Positions 2,596 to 18,929 of a stretch of DNA of 55,770 nucleotides are shown one piece after another (within the stretch, counting starts at the first letter, position 1; every line of letters begins with the position of its first letter). The stretch spans positions 1 through 55,770 of IMG/VR virus record IMGVR_UViG_3300045996_001623; one strand, 5' to 3'. The notes under the pieces were generated by a model. The model ran no database searches. It worked only from the letters and a program-made list of their open reading frames with translations, and was not told the origin of the DNA. The stretch comes from a virus. The translations under genes and the position numbers were made by a program.

Positions 2596-3573
2596 ATGGC
2601 AACCCGAGACGGTGCAGCCAGCATCCAGGGCGACATGATCCGTGTCACGCCCCTCAACCTCGATGGCACGATCGACACTTCGCGTCCGGTCCTGACGACC
2701 AACGGTTTCATCACCGCGTCGTTCGGCACCGAGTTCGAGGATGGCGACGAGATCACCGAGAAGGCCGCCGACGGCACGGTGTGCATCCAGTACAAGGCTG
2801 ACGACTCCCTCAAGGGCATCACGTTCAGCCTCTCGCTGTGCACCCCGGACCCGGAGTCGGCGGCCCTGATCGCAGGTGGCAAGATCATCTGCGCCGCCGC
2901 CGATGTGGTCGACGACGACGACAACGTGATCGTCAACGCCGGTGACGTCATCGGCTACTCGTCTCCGTCCGTCGGCGCCACGGTGGGCAACCCCGTGGCG
3001 ATCGAGGTCTGGTCGAAGGCGATCGTGAAGGGCAAGCCCGCCGGTGGCACCCCGTACTGGCACTGGGTGTTCCCGTACGTCCGTGTCCGCTACGACGGCG
3101 ACCGCGAGTTCTCGAACGGCGCGCTGTCGAACGAGTACTCGGGCACGGGGGTCGGCAACGACGCCCTGGCCGCGGCCGGGCTCGGCGGGGTCGGCGCCGA
3201 CTTCGTCACCTACAAGGGCGCTCTCGTCAACCCGTTCAGCTACGTCCGGTCGACCGCCAAGCCCGACATCTCGGGTGGTCACTGGTCCGGTGGTTCGGGC
3301 GGCCTGGGCGTGTTCGACAAGACGGCCGACAACTCGATCGGCTGCATCCCGCCGCTCGCGACGTCGGCGACGTCGGGCATCCCCGGCACGTGGAGCCCCG
3401 GCGGGTCGACGCTTCCGGCGTCGGTCGCTGCTCTGCAGTCGGCTTCGCCCGCCATCACGGCGTCGCCCACCACGGCGTGGACGACCGGTCAGTACGTCCA
3501 GACGGCCACGGCCGGAACGGGCGGACGGGCTTACTGGAACGGGACGGCGTGGGTCGCCGGTACCGCTCCCTGA
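2596..3573 (+). CDS. Probable major tail (tube) protein
   Basis: 325 residues, read from an ATG with AAGGA 5 nt upstream. The protein is rich in beta-prone, Gly/Thr/Ser sequence. The segment from FGTEFEDGDEITEKAADG to LSLCTPDPESAALIAGG resembles actinophage major tail subunits. The C-terminal 40 residues (SPTTAWTTGQYVQTATAG onwards) look like a small surface add-on domain. Its place directly after the capsid gene and between two strong terminators fits an abundant virion protein. It could instead be a head decoration protein; sequence search would decide. Confidence 0.6.
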   Translation: MATRDGAASIQGDMIRVTPLNLDGTIDTSRPVLTTNGFITASFGTEFEDGDEITEKAADGTVCIQYKADDSLKGITFSLSLCTPDPESAALIAGGKIICAAADVVDDDDNVIVNAGDVIGYSSPSVGATVGNPVAIEVWSKAIVKGKPAGGTPYWHWVFPYVRVRYDGDREFSNGALSNEYSGTGVGNDALAAAGLGGVGADFVTYKGALVNPFSYVRSTAKPDISGGHWSGGSGGLGVFDKTADNSIGCIPPLATSATSGIPGTWSPGGSTLPASVAALQSASPAITASPTTAWTTGQYVQTATAGTGGRAYWNGTAWVAGTAP

Positions 3574-3597: not shown

Positions 3598-3642
3598 ACG
3601 GCCCTCCGACTCCTGCCGCAAGCACAGGGGTCGGGGGGCCGT
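3598..3642 (+). terminator. Strong hairpin terminator closing the capsid/tail-tube block
   Basis: An 18-bp stem (3598-3615 with 3625-3642) with two G-U pairs and a 9-nt loop. It lies 25 nt after the putative tail-tube gene and just before the next promoter, so it insulates the following accessory cassette from late transcription. Confidence 0.8.
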
Positions 3643-3667
3643 TGCGCGTCACCGCAGCTAGTACCTG

Positions 3668-3694
3668 TTGCGCTGACCCATATCGTGGTATACA
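3668..3694 (+). promoter_or_regulatory. Class A promoter, leaderless (gene at 3703)
   Basis: TTGCGC (3668-3673) serves as a weak -35. CATAT (3679-3683), 5 nt, then TATACA (3689-3694) follows the two-box pattern seen at 11 other sites in this window. The GTG at 3703 sits where +1 is expected and opens with GTGACCCAGACC, the shared start-associated motif. Confidence 0.65.
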
Positions 3695-3702
3695 CTCACG
3701 GC

Positions 3703-3918
3703 GTGACCCAGACCATGACGACCCCACGTGGCACCGTGATCCACCAGCACGACCACCCGACCCGACTGCAGGCTGCCGTGTGCCGCCGCCGTGGAGTCTT
3801 CACGACCGTCCTGCTCGACGCGTCCGCCCCGAACTACGAGGCTGCGCGGCAGGAGGCGATGGAGAAGTTCCCCGGTGTGCCGTTCACGGTCCCGCGTCTC
3901 GGTGAGGTCGTCTCGTGA
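3703..3918 (+). CDS. Small protein of unknown function (cassette gene 1)
   Basis: 71 residues from GTG, beginning VTQTMTT. I chose this start because it lies 8 nt after the TATACA box and carries the window's start-associated sequence; no Shine-Dalgarno is present, so a leaderless mRNA is likely. The body (EAARQEAMEKFPGVPFTVPRL) looks like a small alpha/beta fold without a recognised motif. Its TGA overlaps the GTG of the next gene, implying translational coupling. Confidence 0.65.
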   Translation: MTQTMTTPRGTVIHQHDHPTRLQAAVCRRRGVFTTVLLDASAPNYEAARQEAMEKFPGVPFTVPRLGEVVS

Positions 3919-4331
3919 CCACCGCCCCACTCCCCGATGAGGACACCATGACCACGACGACGAAGACCCCGACCGCCAAGCGGGCCACGAAGAAGAAGGC
4001 CGCTGCGCCGCGGCCCAGCAAGCCTGCGGCGACACCGAAGCCGATCTCCGAGGATCGGATGAACGACAACCTGCTCGCGATCCGGGCCATCGCCAAAGAG
4101 ATCGACCAGGCCCGCGAGGCCACCGACGCTCTCGTCGCGCGGTCCGATGCGCTGATCCGTGAGGCCGTCGATGACGGCGAGCGGTACCGGGACATCGCTG
4201 CGGCTGCCGGTCGGACAGTGCCGTGGGTGCAGATGTCGCTGCGTCGGGTCGCCGGTGTGTCGACGCATCCGGCGCAGCCGATCCCGGACACTCGCATCCG
4301 CAAGTCACGCCGCGCCGCCACCGCCGACTGA
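3915..4331 (+). CDS. Basic-tailed protein with a helix-turn-helix-like C-terminus
   Basis: 138 residues. Residues 12-45 are Thr/Lys/Ala/Pro-rich (KRATKKKAAAPRPSKP), resembling a histone-like or nucleic-acid-binding tail. Residues 50-115 are helical and include ERYRDIAAAAGRTVPWVQMS, which reads like a helix-turn-helix of the kind that senses repeated DNA. The GTG start overlaps the previous stop (GTGA). It could be a DNA-binding regulator of the cassette; this is inferred from composition and the HTH-like pattern only. Confidence 0.65.
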   Translation: MTTAPLPDEDTMTTTTKTPTAKRATKKKAAAPRPSKPAATPKPISEDRMNDNLLAIRAIAKEIDQAREATDALVARSDALIREAVDDGERYRDIAAAAGRTVPWVQMSLRRVAGVSTHPAQPIPDTRIRKSRRAATAD

Positions 4332-4368
4332 TAGTCGGCTATACTCACGGTGTGGGTGTCACACCCAC
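4323..4368 (+). promoter_or_regulatory. Class A promoter flanked by two palindromes, upstream of the MoxR gene
   Basis: GATAG (4330-4334), 5 nt, TATACT (4340-4345). A perfect palindrome GCCGACT-GAT-AGTCGGC (4323-4339) overlaps the upstream box. A second, GTGGGTG-TCA-CACCCAC (4352-4368), starts at the predicted +1. The leader then holds CAGACCCAGACC (about 4383-4394) and GGGAGA before the ATG at 4414. The palindromes could be operators, or the second could be a 5'-end mRNA hairpin. Confidence 0.65.
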
Positions 4369-4413
4369 CTGCCACAATCGACCAGACCCAGACCTGACCG
4401 GGAGATCCACCCA

Positions 4414-5370
4414 ATGTCCGAAACCGCTGCTGACTCGAAGATCGACCTGGTTGGTCTGTTCTGGTCGCCGCTTGCCCACTCCGTGAAGTTCGCTGACCTC
4501 CCGAAGGTCCTCGGCGATCCCACCGCGCCCGACGCGCAGAACGTCCCCGTGCAGCCCGTTCTGGACGAGCCGAAGGACTACCTGCGGCCCAACGGCGAGA
4601 TCTACGTGCCGCGCAAGCTGCAGGTCGGTGAGGTCACGATGCAGGACGTCACGTTCATCCGGCAGTCGCTCGACGCCGGGCTCACCGTGCTGCTCTACGG
4701 CGAGCCCGGCTGCGGCAAGACCGCTCTGGTCGAAGCTGCGTTCAGCGACGAACTCGTCACCGTGCAGGGCACCATCGAGACCGACAGCGCCGACTTCGTC
4801 GGGTCGTGGACCCAACAGCCGGACGGCACCTACCTGTGGGTCGACGGCCCGCTGCCCCACGCCATGGAGACCGGCAAGAAACTGCTGGTCGACGAGATCG
4901 CTCTGATCGACCCACGGGTCATGGCCGTCGTCTACGGCGTCATGGACGGCCGCGGCGAGTTGACCGTCACCCAGAACCCGCTGCGCGGCGTCGTGAAGGC
5001 GTCCCCCGGTTTCCAGGTGGTCGGCGCGTGCAACCCGAACGTGCCCGGCGCCCAGATGTCCGATGCTCTGCTGTCCCGCTTCGCGATCCACGTCGAGATG
5101 ACGACCGATTGGGCGCTCGCCCCGAAGCTGGGCTGCGGCTCGAAGATCATCCAGGTGTGCAAGTCGCTCAACGACAAGTACCGCAAGTCGGAGATGACGC
5201 AGGCCCCGCAGTTGCGGGAGATGATCCAGTACACGGCCGTCGCCGCGAAGTTCGGGGATGCGTTCGCTCTGCGGAACTTCCTGTCGCAGATCCGGCCGGA
5301 GAACCAGCCGGTCGCCAAGGCCGTCATCGAGGCCGTGTTCGGCACGACCGTCACCGGGCTGGTCATCTGA
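4414..5370 (+). CDS. MoxR-family AAA+ ATPase
   Basis: 318 residues. Walker A is GEPGCGKT (96-103), Walker B LLVDE (157-161), sensor-1 Asn in ACNPN (about 207), and the LLSRF motif (219-223) carries the probable arginine finger Arg222. This is the MoxR/CbbQ/CobS type of AAA+ ATPase, which typically works as a chaperone-like motor on a VWA-domain partner. Such a partner is encoded two genes downstream. The start is supported by GGGAGA 8 nt upstream. The TGA overlaps the next ATG as TGATG. What it remodels in phage infection is unknown. Confidence 0.88.
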   Translation: MSETAADSKIDLVGLFWSPLAHSVKFADLPKVLGDPTAPDAQNVPVQPVLDEPKDYLRPNGEIYVPRKLQVGEVTMQDVTFIRQSLDAGLTVLLYGEPGCGKTALVEAAFSDELVTVQGTIETDSADFVGSWTQQPDGTYLWVDGPLPHAMETGKKLLVDEIALIDPRVMAVVYGVMDGRGELTVTQNPLRGVVKASPGFQVVGACNPNVPGAQMSDALLSRFAIHVEMTTDWALAPKLGCGSKIIQVCKSLNDKYRKSEMTQAPQLREMIQYTAVAAKFGDAFALRNFLSQIRPENQPVAKAVIEAVFGTTVTGLVI

Positions 5371-6257
5371 TGGGGCCGTGCTGCAACCACTGCGGCAGGC
5401 CGCTCGACCCGGACACGGGCTTCACGTTCTGCGACCCGTGTTTCAGCATTCTGCGCCACGCCACCGACGTCGACGAAGCGATCCTCGCTGAGGCCAAGGT
5501 CCGCCGCCGCGAAGCCGCCAGCCGCCGCGCTGCCACGTGGGGTGACGCCATGAAAGCCCTCGACGACGTCGCCGCTAAGACTGGCGGAGCCATCGGCGCT
5601 CTCGCCGACATGGCTGCCGCCGCCCTCACCCCCGACCCCGACCCAGACAAGGACCTTCTCACCATGACCGACACCACCGACGCCCCCGCCCTCCACACGC
5701 TCAACCGGTCCAACGGCGAGAAGCTGACCGCGCGCAACGCCGAAGAGGTCGCCGACCTCATCACGATCTGCGCCAAGGGCGACGCCACGAAGGACTTCAT
5801 GCAGAAGGCCCGCAACGGCGAGGGGACCGGCACGCTCGGCCTGTACGTCGAAGCGGTCGCGTTCAACGCTCACGGCAAGCCGATGTCGCACATGAAGTTC
5901 TTCGTCATCGGGGAGCACCTGTACGCCTACAACCGGCAGAACGGCGACACCCGGGCCAACTGGCGGCATCGGGTCGTGGCGAGCCTGGCGGACGCTCTGG
6001 GCGCCGTGCAGGCGGCTCTGGACAAGCCGTCGGTGAAGTTGTTCGGGCATCCGGTGATGGTCGAGTTGACGCCGGACGATCTGTCGGCGGTCGAGACGAA
6101 CCAGATGCCGCCGTCACGGTTCCGTGGCGAGTCGCGGATCGCCCGGTCGTTCGAGCGGTACGACTTCGATCCGGACACGGCGGTGGAGAGCCTGCCGGTC
6201 CCGTCGTCGCTGACGAAGATGCTGCGCACCCCGCAGTTCGTCACACCCCCCTTCTGA
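5370..6257 (+). CDS. Zinc-ribbon protein of unknown function (cassette gene 4)
   Basis: 295 residues. An N-terminal CxxC...CxxC ribbon (CNHCGRPL, CDPC; residues 5-25) is followed by a helical linker rich in Arg/Ala (30-85), an acidic joint, and an alpha/beta domain from about 95 on (LHTLNRSNGEKLTARNAEEV; VEAVAFNAHGKPMSHMKFFV). Coupled to the MoxR gene by TGATG. It sits between the ATPase and the VWA gene and may be a client or adaptor of that pair; I do not recognise the family. Confidence 0.8.
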   Translation: MGPCCNHCGRPLDPDTGFTFCDPCFSILRHATDVDEAILAEAKVRRREAASRRAATWGDAMKALDDVAAKTGGAIGALADMAAAALTPDPDPDKDLLTMTDTTDAPALHTLNRSNGEKLTARNAEEVADLITICAKGDATKDFMQKARNGEGTGTLGLYVEAVAFNAHGKPMSHMKFFVIGEHLYAYNRQNGDTRANWRHRVVASLADALGAVQAALDKPSVKLFGHPVMVELTPDDLSAVETNQMPPSRFRGESRIARSFERYDFDPDTAVESLPVPSSLTKMLRTPQFVTPPF

Positions 6258-6273
6258 TACACACTGCTATACT
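6258..6273 (+). promoter_or_regulatory. Class A promoter, leaderless (VWA gene)
   Basis: TACAC (6258-6262), 5 nt, TATACT (6268-6273), then 6 nt to GTG 6280. The message opens GTGGACTCAGACCCAGAC, containing the start-associated motif. TGCTATACTGC is shared with the promoters at 13204 and 45489. Confidence 0.75.
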
Positions 6274-6279
6274 GCTGTC

Positions 6280-8352
6280 GTGGACTCAGACCCAGACATC
6301 GACCAGGACGTCGCTGACGCCGTCGCAGAAGTCATCGCGACGATGCGCGCCATGCTCGTCCTGCCACCACATCTCACGAGCACGAACACCCATCTCGTCA
6401 AGCGGACCGCCGACCTCAACGTCGACAGCGCATCGAACCCGCTGGTCCGCATCTCGCGGAGCGGGCCGGGGGTACGCACCCATCTGACCGCACCGGTCGC
6501 CCACTACGTCGATAACGACGACATCCGGGTGCCGCCCGCCCCCGCCTGGTATCTGCCAGGGACGAACGACCTCTACATCCACGTCGACGCGGCCGGACTC
6601 ACCGGCAGCATCCCGGCGGTCGACGTGACCCGCCCGTGGAACGTCAAGGGGAAGGAAGCGGCGACGATCCTCGGTCTGCTGTGCCATGAGGCCGGGCACG
6701 CTGCGATCTCCGGCGACATGATCGAGGTCCAGAAGGAAGCGCCGCACCACGCCGACCTGCTCACCCTCATCGAAGAGATCCGGGTCGAGAACCAGGCCCT
6801 GCGCGCCTACCCGGAAGGCCGGGCGGGTCTGCGGGCGTCCATGGCAATCGTGTTGAAGAACCTGCCCGACGAGTTCGAGACGAAGGGCCACGTCGTCCGA
6901 GCGTGGACGATCTGCCACGGCCGCACCCTCGCCGGGATCTCCGACGAAGCCGAAACCAGCCAGATCGACGTCGCCGCCCGCACCCTGCTCACCGACGACG
7001 TCGTCGACGCCCTGACAGACCTGCTGCAGGAAGCGATCACGTTGAAGCTGAACTACGAGATCCACCGCAACCGCCTCATCAAGATCTGCGACGAGTGGAC
7101 GGAACTCGTCGGTGAGCCCGCCGAGACGACCGGTTGCGCGACGTGCGCACGGGAAGCGCAGCCCGGCGAGAAGACCGACAACGTCGGTGGTGGCGGCAAG
7201 TCCGACGAGGAAGGCGACGACGACGAAGCCGGTGACGGCGGCGGGGCCGACGGCGACGGTGAGGACGGTGAGCCCACCACGGCCGGAGAGAAGAACGGCG
7301 CCCACGATCACAGCGAGCCCGACCGGACCGACGCGGGCACGTGGGGCACCCCCGGCCAGGACAGCCTCATCGGCGACAACGAGGACATCGACTACCCCAA
7401 CAGGCTCACCGACGAGGACGCCGAACTCATGTCGATGCTCACCCGCAACCTGTCCGACCTGATGCAGGACGAATGGATGCGGGAACGGGACCACACGATC
7501 GAACTGGCCAACTCGCGGGAGTGGGCAGCGAAGATCTTCGGGAACACGACGACGTCCCGGATGCTGTCCCTCTACGACCCGAAGCCGGTCACCCGCCAGT
7601 CCGTTGTCCGTGTCGCAGGGGCCCTGTCGGCGCTGATGCTCCCGGCGATCTCGAAGACGGCGAAGGCCATGGTGATCCCGCCCGGCAAGCTGCGAGGCCG
7701 TGAAGCGGTCCGCCAGTCCGCCGAACGGGCCCAGGGTCGGATGACGACGGCGAAGCCGTGGGCCGGAACGGTCCGCCGCCACTCGTCGGCCCGTCCGCTC
7801 ATCGTCGGTGTCGCCACCGACACGTCCGGGTCGATGGGCTGGGCACAGTTGGCCGTCGCCGAGTTCGCGTTCGTGTTCGCCAACGCCGGGCATCGTGTCG
7901 GTGCCCGGACCGCTGCGGTCACGTTCGGTGATCGGGTCGTGCGGATCGCGCGGCCCGGCGAAGTGATGGCCCAGGTCGCCGAGAAGCCCGCCCATGACGG
8001 CTCAGAAGAGTTCGACAAGGCCATGGCCGCACTCGACGGGGTCCTGCACCTGACGGAGCCCAGCTACTCGGCTCGCATCCTGTTCATCGTCTCCGACGGG
8101 GCGTTCGTCATCGAAGGCGAGTCCGATCGGGCTGCTGAGTGGGTGCGGCGCATGGACAAGGTCGGGACGCACATCGTGTGGGTCACCGACGTCGGCGGTC
8201 CGCACTGGCTGGCCGGGATGAAGCTGGACCGGGTGTCGGTCCGGACGCTCGGCAAGCGGGGTCGGGAAGTCGCTCGGGTGCACGGCGAACGGCACGTGTA
8301 CTCGATGATGGAGGAAGAGGCCCTGCTGGCCATCGCTCACGACATCCGCTGA
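6280..8352 (+). CDS. VWA-domain protein with an HEAGH metallopeptidase-like N-terminal domain
   Basis: 690 residues from a leaderless GTG. Residues 130-175 contain HEAGH (136-140) followed by EEIRVEN (about 165-171), consistent with a zinc HExxH...E site. About 300-385 is a highly acidic Gly/Asp/Glu linker. The C-terminal 190 residues form a von Willebrand A domain with the MIDAS motif D514-x-S516-x-S518 and later T and D motifs (AAVTFGD, IVSDG). Proteins of this build partner MoxR ATPases, for example CobT/CoxE-like pairs. The neighbouring MoxR gene makes a functional pair likely. No secretion signal is seen, so it should act in the cytoplasm. Confidence 0.85.
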   Translation: MDSDPDIDQDVADAVAEVIATMRAMLVLPPHLTSTNTHLVKRTADLNVDSASNPLVRISRSGPGVRTHLTAPVAHYVDNDDIRVPPAPAWYLPGTNDLYIHVDAAGLTGSIPAVDVTRPWNVKGKEAATILGLLCHEAGHAAISGDMIEVQKEAPHHADLLTLIEEIRVENQALRAYPEGRAGLRASMAIVLKNLPDEFETKGHVVRAWTICHGRTLAGISDEAETSQIDVAARTLLTDDVVDALTDLLQEAITLKLNYEIHRNRLIKICDEWTELVGEPAETTGCATCAREAQPGEKTDNVGGGGKSDEEGDDDEAGDGGGADGDGEDGEPTTAGEKNGAHDHSEPDRTDAGTWGTPGQDSLIGDNEDIDYPNRLTDEDAELMSMLTRNLSDLMQDEWMRERDHTIELANSREWAAKIFGNTTTSRMLSLYDPKPVTRQSVVRVAGALSALMLPAISKTAKAMVIPPGKLRGREAVRQSAERAQGRMTTAKPWAGTVRRHSSARPLIVGVATDTSGSMGWAQLAVAEFAFVFANAGHRVGARTAAVTFGDRVVRIARPGEVMAQVAEKPAHDGSEEFDKAMAALDGVLHLTEPSYSARILFIVSDGAFVIEGESDRAAEWVRRMDKVGTHIVWVTDVGGPHWLAGMKLDRVSVRTLGKRGREVARVHGERHVYSMMEEEALLAIAHDIR

Positions 8353-8361
8353 CCGTGCCGC

Positions 8362-8407
8362 CGCCAGCCCCTCTCAGGCGGGCACCTTGTGGGGAGGGGG
8401 GCTGGCG
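8362..8407 (+). terminator. Hairpin terminator closing the MoxR/VWA cassette
   Basis: CGCCAGCCCC (8362-8371) pairs perfectly with GGGGCTGGCG (8398-8407) over 10 bp, and flanking CCGCC/GGCGG can extend it. It lies 10 nt after the VWA stop. Together with the hairpin at 3598-3642 it isolates the cassette transcriptionally. Confidence 0.7.
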
Positions 8408-8455
8408 ATGGCGGGTGGGCGGAGCGGGCAGGCTCCACCTGGCAGACTACTGGCC

Positions 8456-8911
8456 GTGGCTGGCGATGTCGTGTTCGTCCCGGACCCGGCCGGATGGGCG
8501 CACGCGTTCAAGTCGGAGACCGGCCTGCTCGGCCGTTATATGTCGGACCTGACCACCGACGTCGCCGTCGCCGTCAAGTCGCAGGCGCCGGGGCCGGGGA
8601 AGCCGCCGATGAACCGGACCGGCATCTACTACGGCAAGGGCACCACCGAATCGACGATCGGGGCGAAGGTCGTCGCTGACGGGGTGTCTGAGATCGAGGG
8701 GCGGGTGTGGGCGATGCCGCACTACGTCAAGTTCGTCATCCACGGCACCGCCCCCCACCTGATCCTCCCGAAGAAGCCCGGTGGCCGGTTGAAGTTCTTC
8801 TGGGCGCGGAAGGGCAAGTTCATGTCGCTGCCCCACGTGAACCATCCGGGGACGATGGCGAACGACTTCCTGACGCGGGGGCTCCGCATCGGGTTCACCC
8901 TGAGCGCGTAA
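8456..8911 (+). CDS. HK97 gp10-like tail completion / head-tail joining protein
   Basis: 151 residues from GTG 8456 (VAGDVVFVPDPAGWAHAF). The core MPHYVKFVIHGTAPHLI, LPKKPGGRLKFFW and HVNHPGTMANDFL follow the HK97 gp10 family pattern: a HGT..H.I motif, a charged beta hairpin and a terminal HPG...FL. The product joins the tail terminator to the head in lambda-like phages. An ATG at 8408 is in frame but lies immediately beyond the terminator stem, so I prefer the GTG. The stop TAA forms part of the next gene's -10 box. Confidence 0.72.
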   Translation: MAGDVVFVPDPAGWAHAFKSETGLLGRYMSDLTTDVAVAVKSQAPGPGKPPMNRTGIYYGKGTTESTIGAKVVADGVSEIEGRVWAMPHYVKFVIHGTAPHLILPKKPGGRLKFFWARKGKFMSLPHVNHPGTMANDFLTRGLRIGFTLSA

Positions 8912-8920: not shown

Positions 8921-9802
8921 ATGCCCGTCGCCACACTCTCGACGTACGAAGACCTGTGGGTGCATCCCCAGGTCGTCGCCGCTCTCGGCGACGGGTTCAC
9001 CTACGTCGACATTGAGGCGTACGACCCGACGGTGGCCTACGCCGAATGCTCCCATGTCCTCGCCGGTGACGCCCCGTTCGGCGGGTACGTGTGGACGAAC
9101 GTCGCCTACGTCGAAGTCGGCGGACCCGGCCCGCTCACCCCGAACCAGGTTGTGTGGCAGCGCGACGACCTCCTGCTCGCCCAGCGGCTCCACCTGTACT
9201 CGGCGACGTCGCAGGCCACATGGATGCTCGACGCGCTCTCCCAGTTCCGGCTCCACGGCCAGGAGTTCTGGCAGGAGGACTACGCCGTCCATTCGTGCAC
9301 GATCCGGCTGCGTCGCTCGCCGGTCGAGTCGATCCATTCGGTCACCCGAGTGAAGCGCTGCAACGTCGTCACCGACGACGTCATCGACTGGTGCCACGAC
9401 TCGCAACAGACCGTGTCGGTGTGCTGCAACGGGGTGTCGTTCTACGGGTTCTCGTGCGGTTGCAGCGACAACGTCGTCCGGGTCATCTACACGATCGGGT
9501 CGAACCTGCCTCCCGGCACCGAAGGGCTCACCGCCTGGCTCGCCAACGAGTACGGCAAGGCCGCCGCCGGGAAGGCGTGCGCGCTGCCGGACCGGCTGTC
9601 GACGATCACCCGGCAAGGGGTGTCGTGGACGGTCGTCGACCCGCAGGACTACCTGACGAACAAGATGACCGGGATGGGCAAGGTCGACTCGTGGCTGGCC
9701 GCTGTCCGGCTCACGATGGGCGGCACCCTCATCGACCCGTTGCAGTCCCGCCGCCTGTTCTCCACCCGGCTCGACGCCCTGCCCGTCGTAGAGGCCACGT
9801 GA
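8921..9802 (+). CDS. Putative head-to-tail adaptor
   Basis: 293 residues. N-terminal helices (VATLSTYEDLWVHPQVVAAL) are followed by mixed beta sequence. Several Cys cluster in the middle (CCNGVSFYGFSCGCSD). The later segment GTEGLTAWLANEYGKAAAGKACALPDRLSTITRQGVSW matches the style of actinophage adaptor or connector proteins, in which a conserved Cys/Leu-Pro/Arg-Gly stretch precedes the last helix. The gene lies between the gp10-like gene and another small joining protein, which fits a connector role. It overlaps the next GTG by 4 nt. Confidence 0.6.
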   Translation: MPVATLSTYEDLWVHPQVVAALGDGFTYVDIEAYDPTVAYAECSHVLAGDAPFGGYVWTNVAYVEVGGPGPLTPNQVVWQRDDLLLAQRLHLYSATSQATWMLDALSQFRLHGQEFWQEDYAVHSCTIRLRRSPVESIHSVTRVKRCNVVTDDVIDWCHDSQQTVSVCCNGVSFYGFSCGCSDNVVRVIYTIGSNLPPGTEGLTAWLANEYGKAAAGKACALPDRLSTITRQGVSWTVVDPQDYLTNKMTGMGKVDSWLAAVRLTMGGTLIDPLQSRRLFSTRLDALPVVEAT

Positions 9803-14378: not shown

Positions 14379-14783
14379 GTGCCAGTTGTTTCGACCATCT
14401 GGGCGCCCAGCGATGCGACCCCGATCTGTGGGCCGGGCGCCCCTGCGGTAGTCCTCTCACAACCGCTCGAAGCCAACCTGGTCGTCTACCGGGGTGACTC
14501 CGGGCGGTTCCGCGTCTCCGTCACCGAAGAGGGCTCGAACGTCGACCTGAGCACCGCCGTGTGGGACGCCGACATCCGCGCGACGTTCGATGACACCGCC
14601 GTGCTCGGCACGATGACCGTCACCCTCGTCGACGCGTTCACGGTCGAGATCTTCCTGCCCGCCGCCGTGTCCACCGCCCTTCCGCCCGCCGGTGGGGTGT
14701 GGGACCTGCAGATGACCCTTGACGGCGACGTCACGACCCTCCTACGTGGAACGGTCACCGTCGACAAGGATGTGTCCCGGTGA
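14379..14783 (+). CDS. Beta-rich tail-associated protein
   Basis: 134 residues from GTG. After about 30 residues it shows [25 protein letters not shown], a pattern found in phage proteins that precede collagen-like fibres and have an Ig-like or baseplate-protein fold. Strands alternate to the end ([30 protein letters not shown], named by its ends). Its TGA overlaps the GTG of the collagen-like gene, so the two may form one fibre assembly. Confidence 0.65.
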
Positions 14784-15232
14784 GCGACACCTACGTCCCC
14801 CACATCACGGTCCCGCTGCGCCGCTACGCCGGGATCGTCGGCCCCACGGGCCCCACCGGGCCTGCAGGGCCCGCAGGAGGCCCCACCGGGCCGACAGGCC
14901 CCACCGGCCCCGCGGGAGGCCCCACGGGCCCCACCGGGCCGACAGGCGGCTCAGGTCCGGCCGGTCCGACCGGTCCCGGAGTTCCATCAGGTGGTTCCGT
15001 CGGTCAGGTCGTCGTCAAGACCGGCGTCGGCGACTACGTCACCGGGTGGGGCGCCGACCCCGCCGCCGCGCTTTCCAACCACGCCGTCGACTCCACGAAC
15101 GTGCACGGCATCGCCGACACCGCACTGCTCGTCCTCAACGGCGGCAACGTCTCCACGGTTCGCCAACTGTCCCAGGCCGCGTACGACGCCATCACGACCA
15201 AAGACCCGACGACTCTCTACATCATCACCTGA
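14780..15232 (+). CDS. Collagen-like tail fibre protein
   Basis: 150 residues. Residues 21-70 are Gly-x-y triplets ([14 protein letters not shown] repeated) with short GG interruptions, predicting a trimeric collagen-like stalk. The C-terminal 80 residues are globular and end [25 protein letters not shown], a tail-end motif common in phage fibres. Translationally coupled to the previous gene by GTGA. Confidence 0.82.
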
Positions 15233-15662: not shown

Positions 15663-18600
15663 ATGCCCGAACTGCGTCACGGCATGGCCGTGCCGACCGC
15701 GATGCGCGTCGGCACGGCCCCAGTGCTCGCGGCGTATTTCGGCGCGTTCCAGATCTGGCCGACCGTCGGCGGGATCATCGCTGTCATCTCGGCCACGTCG
15801 GGTGACTCGGTAGCGGTCATCGAAGGGACGGTGATCGGTCCGCCGGTGACCGGCACGATCACGGCGACGTCGGGCAACTCGACCGCCTCGATCATCGGTG
15901 CGGTCGGCGACAACATCTCCGGCATCCTCGATGCCTCGTCGGGTGACTCGGTCGGCGTGCTCGCCGGTGCCGTTGCCATGGGCGGCACCGTCGTCGCGAC
16001 GTCCGGGGACTCGACGGCGGTCATCGTCGGAGTGCTCGCCATCTCCGGCACCATCGTCGCGACGTCCGGCGATTCGACGGCGGACATCGTCGGTTCGCTC
16101 GGCGACAACGTGTCCGGCGTCCTCGAAGCCACGTCCGGGGACTCGCAGGGGTTCATCGCCGGGGACGTGGCCTACAGCGGGGTGCTCGCCGCGACGTCGG
16201 GCGACTCCACGGCGTTCATCGACGCGATCATGTCGCTCGCCGGAATCCTGTCGGCCACGTCGGGTGACTCGACCGCTTCGATCGACGGGGTCACCGCCAT
16301 CCCAGGCACGCTCGCTGGGACGTCGGGCGACTCGACCGGCACCTTCGCCGGGTCGGTCACGGTCATCGGGGTCATGACCGCCACGTCGGACGACTCGACC
16401 GCGGTCATCGTCGGCGCGCTGGCCATCACCGGCACCATCTCCGCTACGTCCGGTGATTCGACAGCGGTCATCACCGGGTCGCTCGGCAGCAACGTGTCCG
16501 GCACCCTCGACGCCACATCGGGCGACTCGACAGCGGTCATGTCCGGCGACATCGGGCTCACCGCCCAGATCGTCGCCACGTCCGGCGACTCGACCGCCGC
16601 CATCACCGGCGAGGTTGCCCTGTCCGGCACCGTCGTCGCCACGTCGGGCGATTCGACCGCCTCGATCACCGGCACCATCTCGGCGACCGCCTTCCCGTCG
16701 ATCGGGGCCAGCAACTCCGAGTCCGGCACAGCGATGGGCACGCAGGCCATCAACATGCCGACCGGCATCACCGCCGGGAACCTGCTGCTGGCGATCGCGA
16801 CGAACGACAACCCGTCGACCACGAACATGACCCCGTCGACCGGGTGGACAGCGATCCACAGCCAGGTGCAGGGCTCGAACGTGTTGAAGCTGGCCGTGAT
16901 GGCCCGCATGGCAGACGGCGGCGCGAACGACAACCTGACGATCACCGGCGCCGCCCAGGACTACTGCGTCACCACCCACCGCATCGTCGACCACGGCGCG
17001 GTCAACGTCGCAGACATCACTGTCGGGTCCGCTGTCGGCACGACCGGTAACGCCGACCCGCCGAACGTCGACGCCGGGGCGGCCCGCCACTTCCTGTGGC
17101 TCACCGCCGCCGCGGTCGACGCCACCACCGGCAACACGATCACCGGCGTCCCCACCGGGTACACCCAGGTCGGCACCACGCTCACATCGGCTTCGTCGAC
17201 GTCGTCGTGTCTGCTCGCCGTCGCCCAGAAGACCGCCGACACCCAGACGGAGAACCCGGGCACGTTCACGAACACGAGCCGCCCGTGGATCGGTGTCACC
17301 ATCGGCATCCCGAAGGACCCGGCCCCGTCGCTCACCGGCACCATCTCGGCCACGTCCGGCGACAGCACGTCCACCATCACCGGCGCCGTCGCCCTGTCCG
17401 GCACGCTCACCGGCACGTCGGGCGACTCGACGGCGACGATCACCGGCGACGTGATGGAGAACCCGTTCGACGACTTCAACCGGGCCGACAACGCCTCGCT
17501 GGGCACCCCGTGGACGATCCGGAACACCGGCACCACGACCAACATGCGGATCACCAGCAACCGGGCCGTGCCCGGCGCTGACACGCAGGACTCCACGATG
17601 CAGTACGGCACCTACGTGCACGACGACACCGGGTACGTCCAGGCGAAGGTCCGCTGCGACAACGGGTTCGCAGGCATCCAGGCGCTGATCACGCTGCCGT
17701 TCCGCAACGAAGTCGAGATGATCATTCACCCGGACGGCGAGTTCCGGATCGTGGAGCACAACAACGGCACCGAAGTCGTCCTCGACTCGGCGACGGGGGC
17801 CGGAGACATCGAGTACCTGCTGCGCATGGAATGGGAGATCGTCGGGTCGACCACCACGCTGCGCGGTTACGTTGACGGGGTCCTCACCCTCGAAGGGACG
17901 ACCGGGAACCACATCACGCCCGGCAACGTCGGCATCTCGTCGTACCGGCAGGGCGGCACCCTCTACTTCGACGACTTCGAAGCCGGGGTGCTCGTCCCGC
18001 CCGTCCTGACCCCGCCAGGCGTCCCGACCGGGCTCACCGCCACCGCAGGCGACGGCCAGGTCAGCCTGACATGGTCCGCCCCCGGCTCGAACGGCGGCTC
18101 CGCCATCACCGACTACCAGGTGCAGTGGCGCACCACTGCCGGGCCCGGGTCGTGGAACACGTTCTCCGACGGGACCTCCACGGCGACATCGGCGACGGTC
18201 ACCGGCCTCACGAACGGCACCAGCTACGACTTCCAGGTCGCTGCCATCAACGCCATCGGCACCGGCTCGTTCTCCGCGACCGACACCGAAACCCCGGTGT
18301 CTGCCGGGTCGCCGGTCGTCTACAAGGGCGGCTGGGGCGGAGAGTGGACCGGCACCACCGTCACGTTCTCGCTGCCCGGCACCGCCGCCGTCGGTGACAC
18401 CGTCATCTACTTCCTCACGTCGGAAGCGGTCTCCGGCGCGACGATCACGGCGGTCCCGACCGGCACCACCCGGCTCGACGGCGTCTCGTCGACCGCCAAT
18501 GCCGAAGTCAGCGACGGAGGCAGCAACAGCTTCAAGCAGTTCGCCTACATCCAGACGCTGGCCTCTGGGTTCGACCCGACGCCGTCGTTCACGTTCTCGA

Positions 18601-18929
18601 CAAGCGTCTACGCGAACCTGGTGTGCCACCTGCTCGAAGGCGACGTCAACGCCTCTAGCTGGGTGTCGCTGAACGAATCCGTCAACGCGGGCAGCGTCCG
18701 CATGCCCGCCGTCACCGTCCCGGCGAACGGGCTGGCGGTCGGCACCGTCGCCAGCTACCAGAACGGCCGGGCGAGCGCCGCCGCGAACTGGACGGCCGCC
18801 ACCGGTGGCGACAACCGTGGCATCCTCCGCCGCTCGACAACGACCGCCACCCAGGAACTTGCCTCCGGGTTCATCTCGGCGGGCGACGCCGACTGGATCT
18901 CGATAGCGGTCCTGCTCGTCGGCGCCTGA
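15663..18929 (+). CDS. Giant repeat-bearing tail fibre / adhesin
   Basis: 1088 residues, start ATG 15663. After 40 residues come 14 tandem repeats of about 20-23 residues built on ATSGDST-A-I-G...GTI (residues about 42-342). A globular adhesin-like domain follows (about 350-560), then two more repeats and a concanavalin/LamG-like domain beginning FDDFNRADNASLGTPWTI (about 600-780). Next is a fibronectin type III domain (GVPTGLTATAGDGQVSLTW onward, about 785-880) and a terminal beta-domain (about 885-1088). The order suggests a long shaft with sugar-binding tips for host attachment. Alternative upstream starts would overlap the preceding gene and lack its coding pattern. Confidence 0.8.
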   Translation: MPELRHGMAVPTAMRVGTAPVLAAYFGAFQIWPTVGGIIAVISATSGDSVAVIEGTVIGPPVTGTITATSGNSTASIIGAVGDNISGILDASSGDSVGVLAGAVAMGGTVVATSGDSTAVIVGVLAISGTIVATSGDSTADIVGSLGDNVSGVLEATSGDSQGFIAGDVAYSGVLAATSGDSTAFIDAIMSLAGILSATSGDSTASIDGVTAIPGTLAGTSGDSTGTFAGSVTVIGVMTATSDDSTAVIVGALAITGTISATSGDSTAVITGSLGSNVSGTLDATSGDSTAVMSGDIGLTAQIVATSGDSTAAITGEVALSGTVVATSGDSTASITGTISATAFPSIGASNSESGTAMGTQAINMPTGITAGNLLLAIATNDNPSTTNMTPSTGWTAIHSQVQGSNVLKLAVMARMADGGANDNLTITGAAQDYCVTTHRIVDHGAVNVADITVGSAVGTTGNADPPNVDAGAARHFLWLTAAAVDATTGNTITGVPTGYTQVGTTLTSASSTSSCLLAVAQKTADTQTENPGTFTNTSRPWIGVTIGIPKDPAPSLTGTISATSGDSTSTITGAVALSGTLTGTSGDSTATITGDVMENPFDDFNRADNASLGTPWTIRNTGTTTNMRITSNRAVPGADTQDSTMQYGTYVHDDTGYVQAKVRCDNGFAGIQALITLPFRNEVEMIIHPDGEFRIVEHNNGTEVVLDSATGAGDIEYLLRMEWEIVGSTTTLRGYVDGVLTLEGTTGNHITPGNVGISSYRQGGTLYFDDFEAGVLVPPVLTPPGVPTGLTATAGDGQVSLTWSAPGSNGGSAITDYQVQWRTTAGPGSWNTFSDGTSTATSATVTGLTNGTSYDFQVAAINAIGTGSFSATDTETPVSAGSPVVYKGGWGGEWTGTTVTFSLPGTAAVGDTVIYFLTSEAVSGATITAVPTGTTRLDGVSSTANAEVSDGGSNSFKQFAYIQTLASGFDPTPSFTFSTSVYANLVCHLLEGDVNASSWVSLNESVNAGSVRMPAVTVPANGLAVGTVASYQNGRASAAANWTAATGGDNRGILRRSTTTATQELASGFISAGDADWISIAVLLVGA
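15781..16690 (+). repeat. Fourteen coding repeats (ATSGDST units)
   Basis: Each unit is 60-69 bp and encodes x-ATSGDSTA-x-I-x-G-x(5-9)-GT[IVL]. Units diverge more at the DNA than at the protein level. Two further units lie at about 17335-17450 after the globular insert. This is a protein repeat, not a CRISPR array: there are no unique spacers and the repeat is translated. Confidence 0.8.

Follow-up and report, generated by a model that had tools for sequence, protein, structure and literature searches.

A probable NorQD-like remodelling module of a phage lineage, encoded between the structural genes of an IMG/VR virus record

A block of five non-structural genes, situated between the major tail protein gene and the neck/adaptor genes of an IMG/VR virus record, rather probably specifies a remodelling machine of NorQD-like type. 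The module is part of the core genes of one phage lineage and here stands, relocated, in the structural operon. The DNA analysed is the whole record (hereafter the window; 55,770 bases, 68.0% G+C). It is probably a fragment of a longer genome, because the closest relative that we compared, L026 (relatives carry locus numbers beginning with L), is a 96.6-kb contig with about 39 kb ahead of its capsid gene.

The preliminary description of this DNA had placed five non-structural genes between the tail-tube and head-tail connector genes, bracketed by hairpins, and both aspects of this layout were confirmed. The block (3703-8352) follows the major tail protein gene (2596-3573; phrog_792) and precedes two neck/adaptor genes (8456-8911, phrog_5, and 8921-9802, phrog_783). 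A GC-rich, terminator-like hairpin lies behind the major tail gene (3599-3641, plus strand; 16-17 bp stem, RNA fold z -4.24) and another behind the last gene of the block (8357-8412, plus strand; ~14-19 bp stem, z -2.95); no U-tract was found in either, and a terminator scan also missed both. The five genes, all on the plus strand, encode the 71-aa protein g71 (3703-3918), which has no relative in any relative locus examined; a 138-aa HTH-type DNA-binding protein (3915-4331; phrog_686, E 3e-5) that is also kept in L026, L018, L023 and L020; an AAA+ ATPase (4414-5370); a 295-aa protein combining an N-terminal zinc ribbon with a C-terminal part that we term MidX (5370-6257); and a 690-aa protein in which an HExxH domain is joined by an acidic linker to a VWA domain (6280-8352). 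Elsewhere in the window (15663-18929) lies the gene for a 1,088-aa protein of repeated 'ATSGDSTA' units, which adjoins a collagen-like GPT-repeat gene (14780-15232).

The best Pfam match of the window ATPase is to AAA_5 (E 5e-19), and a profile built from nine phage ATPases matches midasin, NorQ and CbbQ in the PDB. The Walker A motif, the Walker B motif (DE160-161), sensor 1 (N207) and Arg222 of the SRF motif are invariant in the ATPase alignment. These features point to an AAA+ protein of the NorQ/CbbQ/midasin type with its motifs intact. PADLOC defence models gave no full-length match, with only a short P-loop match to IetA, and the possibility of a known anti-phage defence system was rejected on this account.

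The VWA protein of the window has no Pfam or PHROG family match and a single, insignificant NCBIfam match, while other members of its family show weak family-database matches. Across 75 distinct sequences, all 75 retain the HExxH motif (HEAGH, residues 136-140), a downstream ExRxE motif (E166/R168/E170) with its acidic ligand, R215, the MIDAS DxSxS motif (D514/S516/S518) and D606. A structure model built on 50 sequences shows an N-terminal domain of three strands with one helix bearing HEAGH and further helices bearing E166, R168 and E170, then a disordered acidic linker (283-370), and finally the VWA domain. In the latter the long strands 456-464 and 494-502, predicted at moderate confidence, flank a segment with invariant P467 and G469 and may form a finger-like insertion as in NorD. 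As best PDB fold matches Foldseek returned VWA domains of NorD from NorQD complexes (E 6e-7), along with the midasin MIDAS domain, so that the modelled VWA domain is matched to the NorD fold, whereas the N-terminal domain contains a putative metallopeptidase-like zinc site. These observations support the earlier recognition of a MoxR-type ATPase paired with a VWA protein bearing a metallopeptidase-like domain. Against a viral fold library the protein gave long matches in many other tailed viruses, haloviruses included, and a weak, remote match to ORF892 of the Acidianus two-tailed virus (ATV).

That NorQ and NorD are the nearest structures also raises the prospect of a metal-insertion chaperone for a phage metalloenzyme, comparable to NorQD acting on nitric oxide reductase, with the HExxH domain carrying the metal rather than cutting; the invariance of the metal-site-like residues would fit such a role. 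We consider this improbable, since the obvious candidate recipient, ribonucleotide reductase, is absent from most carriers: 12 of 28 records have its small subunit, the module-less phage Atuin being among these 12, and the enzyme is thereby excluded as a universal target. A related reading, present in some annotations, takes the pair as the cobalt chelatase subunits CobS and CobT of B12 synthesis. CobS/CobT likewise combine an AAA+ protein with a VWA protein and are the source of database names such as 'cobalamin biosynthesis protein' and 'porphyrin biosynthesis', and the ATPase does match a cyanophage CobS weakly (27-29% identity). However, the CobT models of Pfam and NCBIfam gave no match to any of nine VWA proteins, even with the cutoff at E 1, and the ATPase scores best on NorQ/CbbQ/midasin, which are its nearest AAA+ structures. 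A CobS/CobT identity is thus disfavoured to the point of being hardly credible.

Examination of the genes next to the ATPase points to MidX as a newly recognised third conserved component of the module. A single family accounts for the gene directly upstream of the ATPase in DSL-LC01 and in 68 viral contigs, and profile comparisons join this family to the C-terminal part of the zinc-ribbon gene of the window (5664-6257, plus strand) and its L018-L026 homologues (hhalign E 2e-10 and 7e-9), giving a profile match at 69 loci. The equivalent gene of the Microbacterium phages likewise matches MidX (L005, E 9e-15; L014, 1e-10; L012, 9e-6). The family rests on neighbour families that were read individually, automatic neighbour clustering having been muddied by antisense frames; the middle-position genes of the Gordonia phages were considered as MidX and rejected when profile comparison gave no support. 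MidX is linked to the module in most loci, including Microbacterium phages in which the VWA gene has moved away. It has no convincing Pfam or PHROG family match; its model has a confident core (155-265), and a fold search found no match to solved folds.

The zinc ribbon, which the preliminary description counted as a gene of the set, is indeed present but comprises only the first ~98 of the 295 residues (5370-5663, plus strand). It is missing from all homologues examined, which marks it as a private extension in the window and led us to reject it as part of the system. An internal ATG at 5664, with AAGGA upstream, is a possible start that would yield a standard MidX. Judged from sequence comparison, then, the conserved unit within the five-gene set consists of MidX, the ATPase and the HExxH-VWA gene, with the HTH gene added in the nearest relatives, while g71 and the zinc ribbon are private to the window.

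Scans of viral contigs with the single VWA or zinc-ribbon protein as query found no matches, and the VWA alignment was too diverse for this purpose; the ATPase alignment was used instead and recovered 80 loci. The HExxH-VWA gene directly follows the ATPase in 78 of these 80 contigs; one of the other two ends right after the ATPase and the second is only 5.2 kb long. The VWA family was found in 21 records of named phages, and every one of these also ranks with the nearest relatives when capsid and terminase are compared; carrier contigs have a matching capsid protein in 23 of 30 cases and a matching terminase in 27 of 30. Tree distances for both proteins follow those of the terminase tree (r 0.92 for the ATPase, 0.95 for the VWA protein). 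The ATPase and VWA genes are thus inherited together, as a core module of one large phage lineage. The Arthrobacter phage Atuin has a related capsid and terminase, and a profile search, run without a positive control, found neither ATPase nor VWA protein in it; hence, the module would not be needed by all members of the wider lineage.

The preliminary description had seen in this block the classic layout of a moron, that is, accessory cargo recently acquired between structural genes. The block's own promoters (see below) and flanking hairpins, the direct abutment of tail and adaptor genes in relatives and the private g71 and zinc ribbon would all be in keeping with this. But the ATPase, VWA and MidX genes are core genes, the trees of the first two being congruent with the lineage; the G+C content of the block (67.7%) equals that of the genome (68.0%); and the placement recurs in L026 and L018. 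The three core genes show neither absence from close relatives nor independent acquisition, which refutes the moron interpretation for them and renders it very unlikely for the block, though it could still apply to g71 and the zinc ribbon.

Comparison of gene orders favours a relocated core module instead. The major tail and adaptor genes are separated by only 73-97 bp in Phendrix, DSL-LC01, Cece and Atuin as against 5.3 kb in the window, whose arrangement, with the module between them, is shared by L026 and L018. In most other contigs it is found 17-94 kb from the capsid gene, and in L025 and L036 it has the terminase gene on one side and the portal gene on the other. The Gordonia phages carry it on the opposite strand, in the neighbourhood of lysis genes and of genes for WhiB, a methyltransferase and MazG, and in Microbacterium phages MidX and the ATPase stand beside rII-like genes with the VWA gene ~30-45 kb away. 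The last is the sole instance of the unlinking that had been named beforehand as evidence against a functional set, and it affects the VWA gene alone. Since relatives have tail and adaptor genes side by side and the module at other sites, its placement in the window is a derived relocation into the structural operon, and the earlier claim of an insertion between structural genes is to that extent upheld. The rII-like genes of the Microbacterium phages, one rIIA-like and one rIIB-like, come after the ATPase gene (L012, 4399-7697; L014, 6658-7752).

The tail-adaptor junction itself seems to be a hot spot of rearrangement. In L018 (14954-15391) and L019 (17781-18212) the neck gene runs opposite to the cassette, and in L018 to the adaptor as well; L018 further contains an incomplete second major tail gene (3336-3545). 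In L008 (5758-9439), as read by eye, the major tail gene is followed by apparent ligase, exonuclease and ATPase genes, suggesting that this junction can hold other non-structural genes too.

A generic sigma-70 scan of the window found no promoter. However, a phage-specific -10 box (TATACT/TACACT) is present on the plus strand ahead of g71 (TACACT/TATACA, 3691-3702), the ATPase gene (TATACT, beginning at 4340) and the VWA gene (TATACT, 6268-6279), in agreement with the promoters of its own that had been ascribed to the block. Six of the eight TATACT boxes in the whole window are exactly 12-13 nt ahead of a gene start (binomial P ~2e-16), a spacing indicative of leaderless starts, as predicted for g71 and the VWA gene. 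The ATPase box lies 74 nt ahead of the ATPase start and is followed by a perfect 17-bp palindrome, GTGGGTGTCACACCCAC (4352-4368, the whole element spanning 4340-4368), which occurs once in the window and is a candidate operator. Members of the leaderless class in the window (3691, 4340, 6268, 13204, 45489, 45800 and 50662 on the plus strand; 34060 and 36144 on the minus strand) share a plan of a TATACT-like box, 6-7 nt, the start codon, and CAGAC-like repeats within the leader or the opening codons, the density of CAGAC being 1.0 per 60 nt at these starts versus 0.06 in the genome. A similar class with CAGAC-like repeats is seen in L018, L020, L021 and L026, and the pattern is possibly a phage-specific initiation or translation signal. 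As TATACT promoters also precede genes that do not belong to the virion module, among them an Erf-like annealing gene, the block is likely to be expressed together with non-structural genes.

This bears on the alternative that the module is a virion-assembly machine, in which the pair would act on a head or tail protein in late morphogenesis, remodelling and trimming it. Such a role has been proposed for the MoxR/metallopeptidase-vWA pair of jumbo phages (PMC7824862) and has a supported precedent in ATV p618/p892, to which the remote ORF892 fold match would add. It would also sit well with the position of the module, which lies among head-tail genes in the window, L018 and L026 and is flanked by terminase and portal genes in L025 and L036, and with its co-inheritance with terminase and capsid. 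The co-inheritance, however, is neutral on function because any core gene would show it; most contigs have the module far from the capsid gene; that of the Gordonia phages keeps company with WhiB, methyltransferase and MazG genes on the other strand; the promoter class also serves non-structural genes; and Atuin builds a related head without the module. Promoters and variable position together weigh against a purely late, structural role, and we hold the virion-assembly explanation to be doubtful.

The favoured NorQD-like interpretation can be set against known systems. In NorQD the finger of NorD enters the pore of NorQ (PMC13036017). The phage module shares with NorQ/NorD, which act in nitric oxide reductase maturation (PDB 9qh4-9qhg), the AAA+ subfamily as judged by profile and a VWA domain with a linker to an N-terminal domain, and may also share the finger inserted in the VWA domain; it differs in the HExxH and ExRxE motifs of that domain, in the third gene MidX and in having no nitric oxide reductase. 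The group 2.2 jumbo phages encode a MoxR AAA+ ATPase with a metallopeptidase-vWA protein, for which virion assembly with structural-protein processing was suggested (PMC7824862). By its description this pair has the same domain plan, an N-terminal metallopeptidase domain fused to vWA, whereas the present lineage consists of actinophages and related contigs, mostly of ~90-195 kb, and possesses MidX. In ATV the MoxR ATPase p618 binds the VWA protein p892, and according to a review the two were tied to tail development (PMC4124505); this archaeal virus is spindle-shaped and carries p618 in its virion, and the pair is described as being without a peptidase domain (PMC7824862). The haloviruses HVTV-1 and Hardycor1 have neighbouring AAA and VWA genes, those of Hardycor1 lying in a replication/accessory module (PMC7911831). 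The HVTV-1 VWA protein (gene 57; L129, 25607-27838) displays HExxH, ED..IE, a very long acidic linker and MIDAS, i.e. the same plan, though it gave no sequence-profile match to the present family, and MidX was undetected in the halovirus. A two-subunit MoxR chaperone was noted in Bacillus phage 0305phi8-36 as early as 2007 (PMC2147016). Thus, viral MoxR-VWA pairs, metallopeptidase fusions included, are already on record from jumbo phages and from viruses of archaea, and the present set is a further variant of this kind.

Outside viruses, the ATPase-VWA pair is carried by six Micromonosporaceae genomes (L120-L125; Micromonospora, Actinoplanes, Virgisporangium and related), in which MidX was undetected. 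Three of their VWA proteins have HExxH (HEAGH in L124, read directly from the sequence), and those of L122, L123 and L125 have HGxxH, with the catalytic glutamate replaced. Proteolysis may hence be dispensable, as some bacterial relatives keep the VWA protein in this form.

In the mechanism that we propose, the ATPase would form a hexameric ring whose pore is entered by the finger of the VWA protein, and ATP hydrolysis would turn the VWA domain against the N-terminal HExxH domain via the acidic linker. A target protein would be held at the MIDAS site and remodelled there, the zinc site probably cutting it, with MidX as an adaptor or regulator. The module would run from its own promoters, together with the non-structural genes. 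As to the target, there is a nearly even chance that the machine handles a complex of the phage or the host during the non-structural phase; virion proteins are a plausible though lesser candidate, and metal insertion into an enzyme is unlikely. More speculatively, the module might constitute a three-component, ATP-powered viral metalloprotease, in which the AAA+ ring is the motor for an HExxH domain tethered to VWA and MidX selects or presents the substrate. It would be a core function essential to an abundant phage lineage, and the HExxH-linker-VWA plan would extend to haloarchaeal viruses.

MoxR-VWA machines are common among viruses, and the present lineage offers a clean case of them, with invariant catalytic-type residues, a newly recognised third gene, and members in culture that are open to mutation, such as the Gordonia phages Sixama and GodonK and the Microbacterium phage Zooman. 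The database names that call its proteins cobalamin or porphyrin enzymes are open to correction, and the lineage could show whether AAA+/VWA machines can drive proteolysis.
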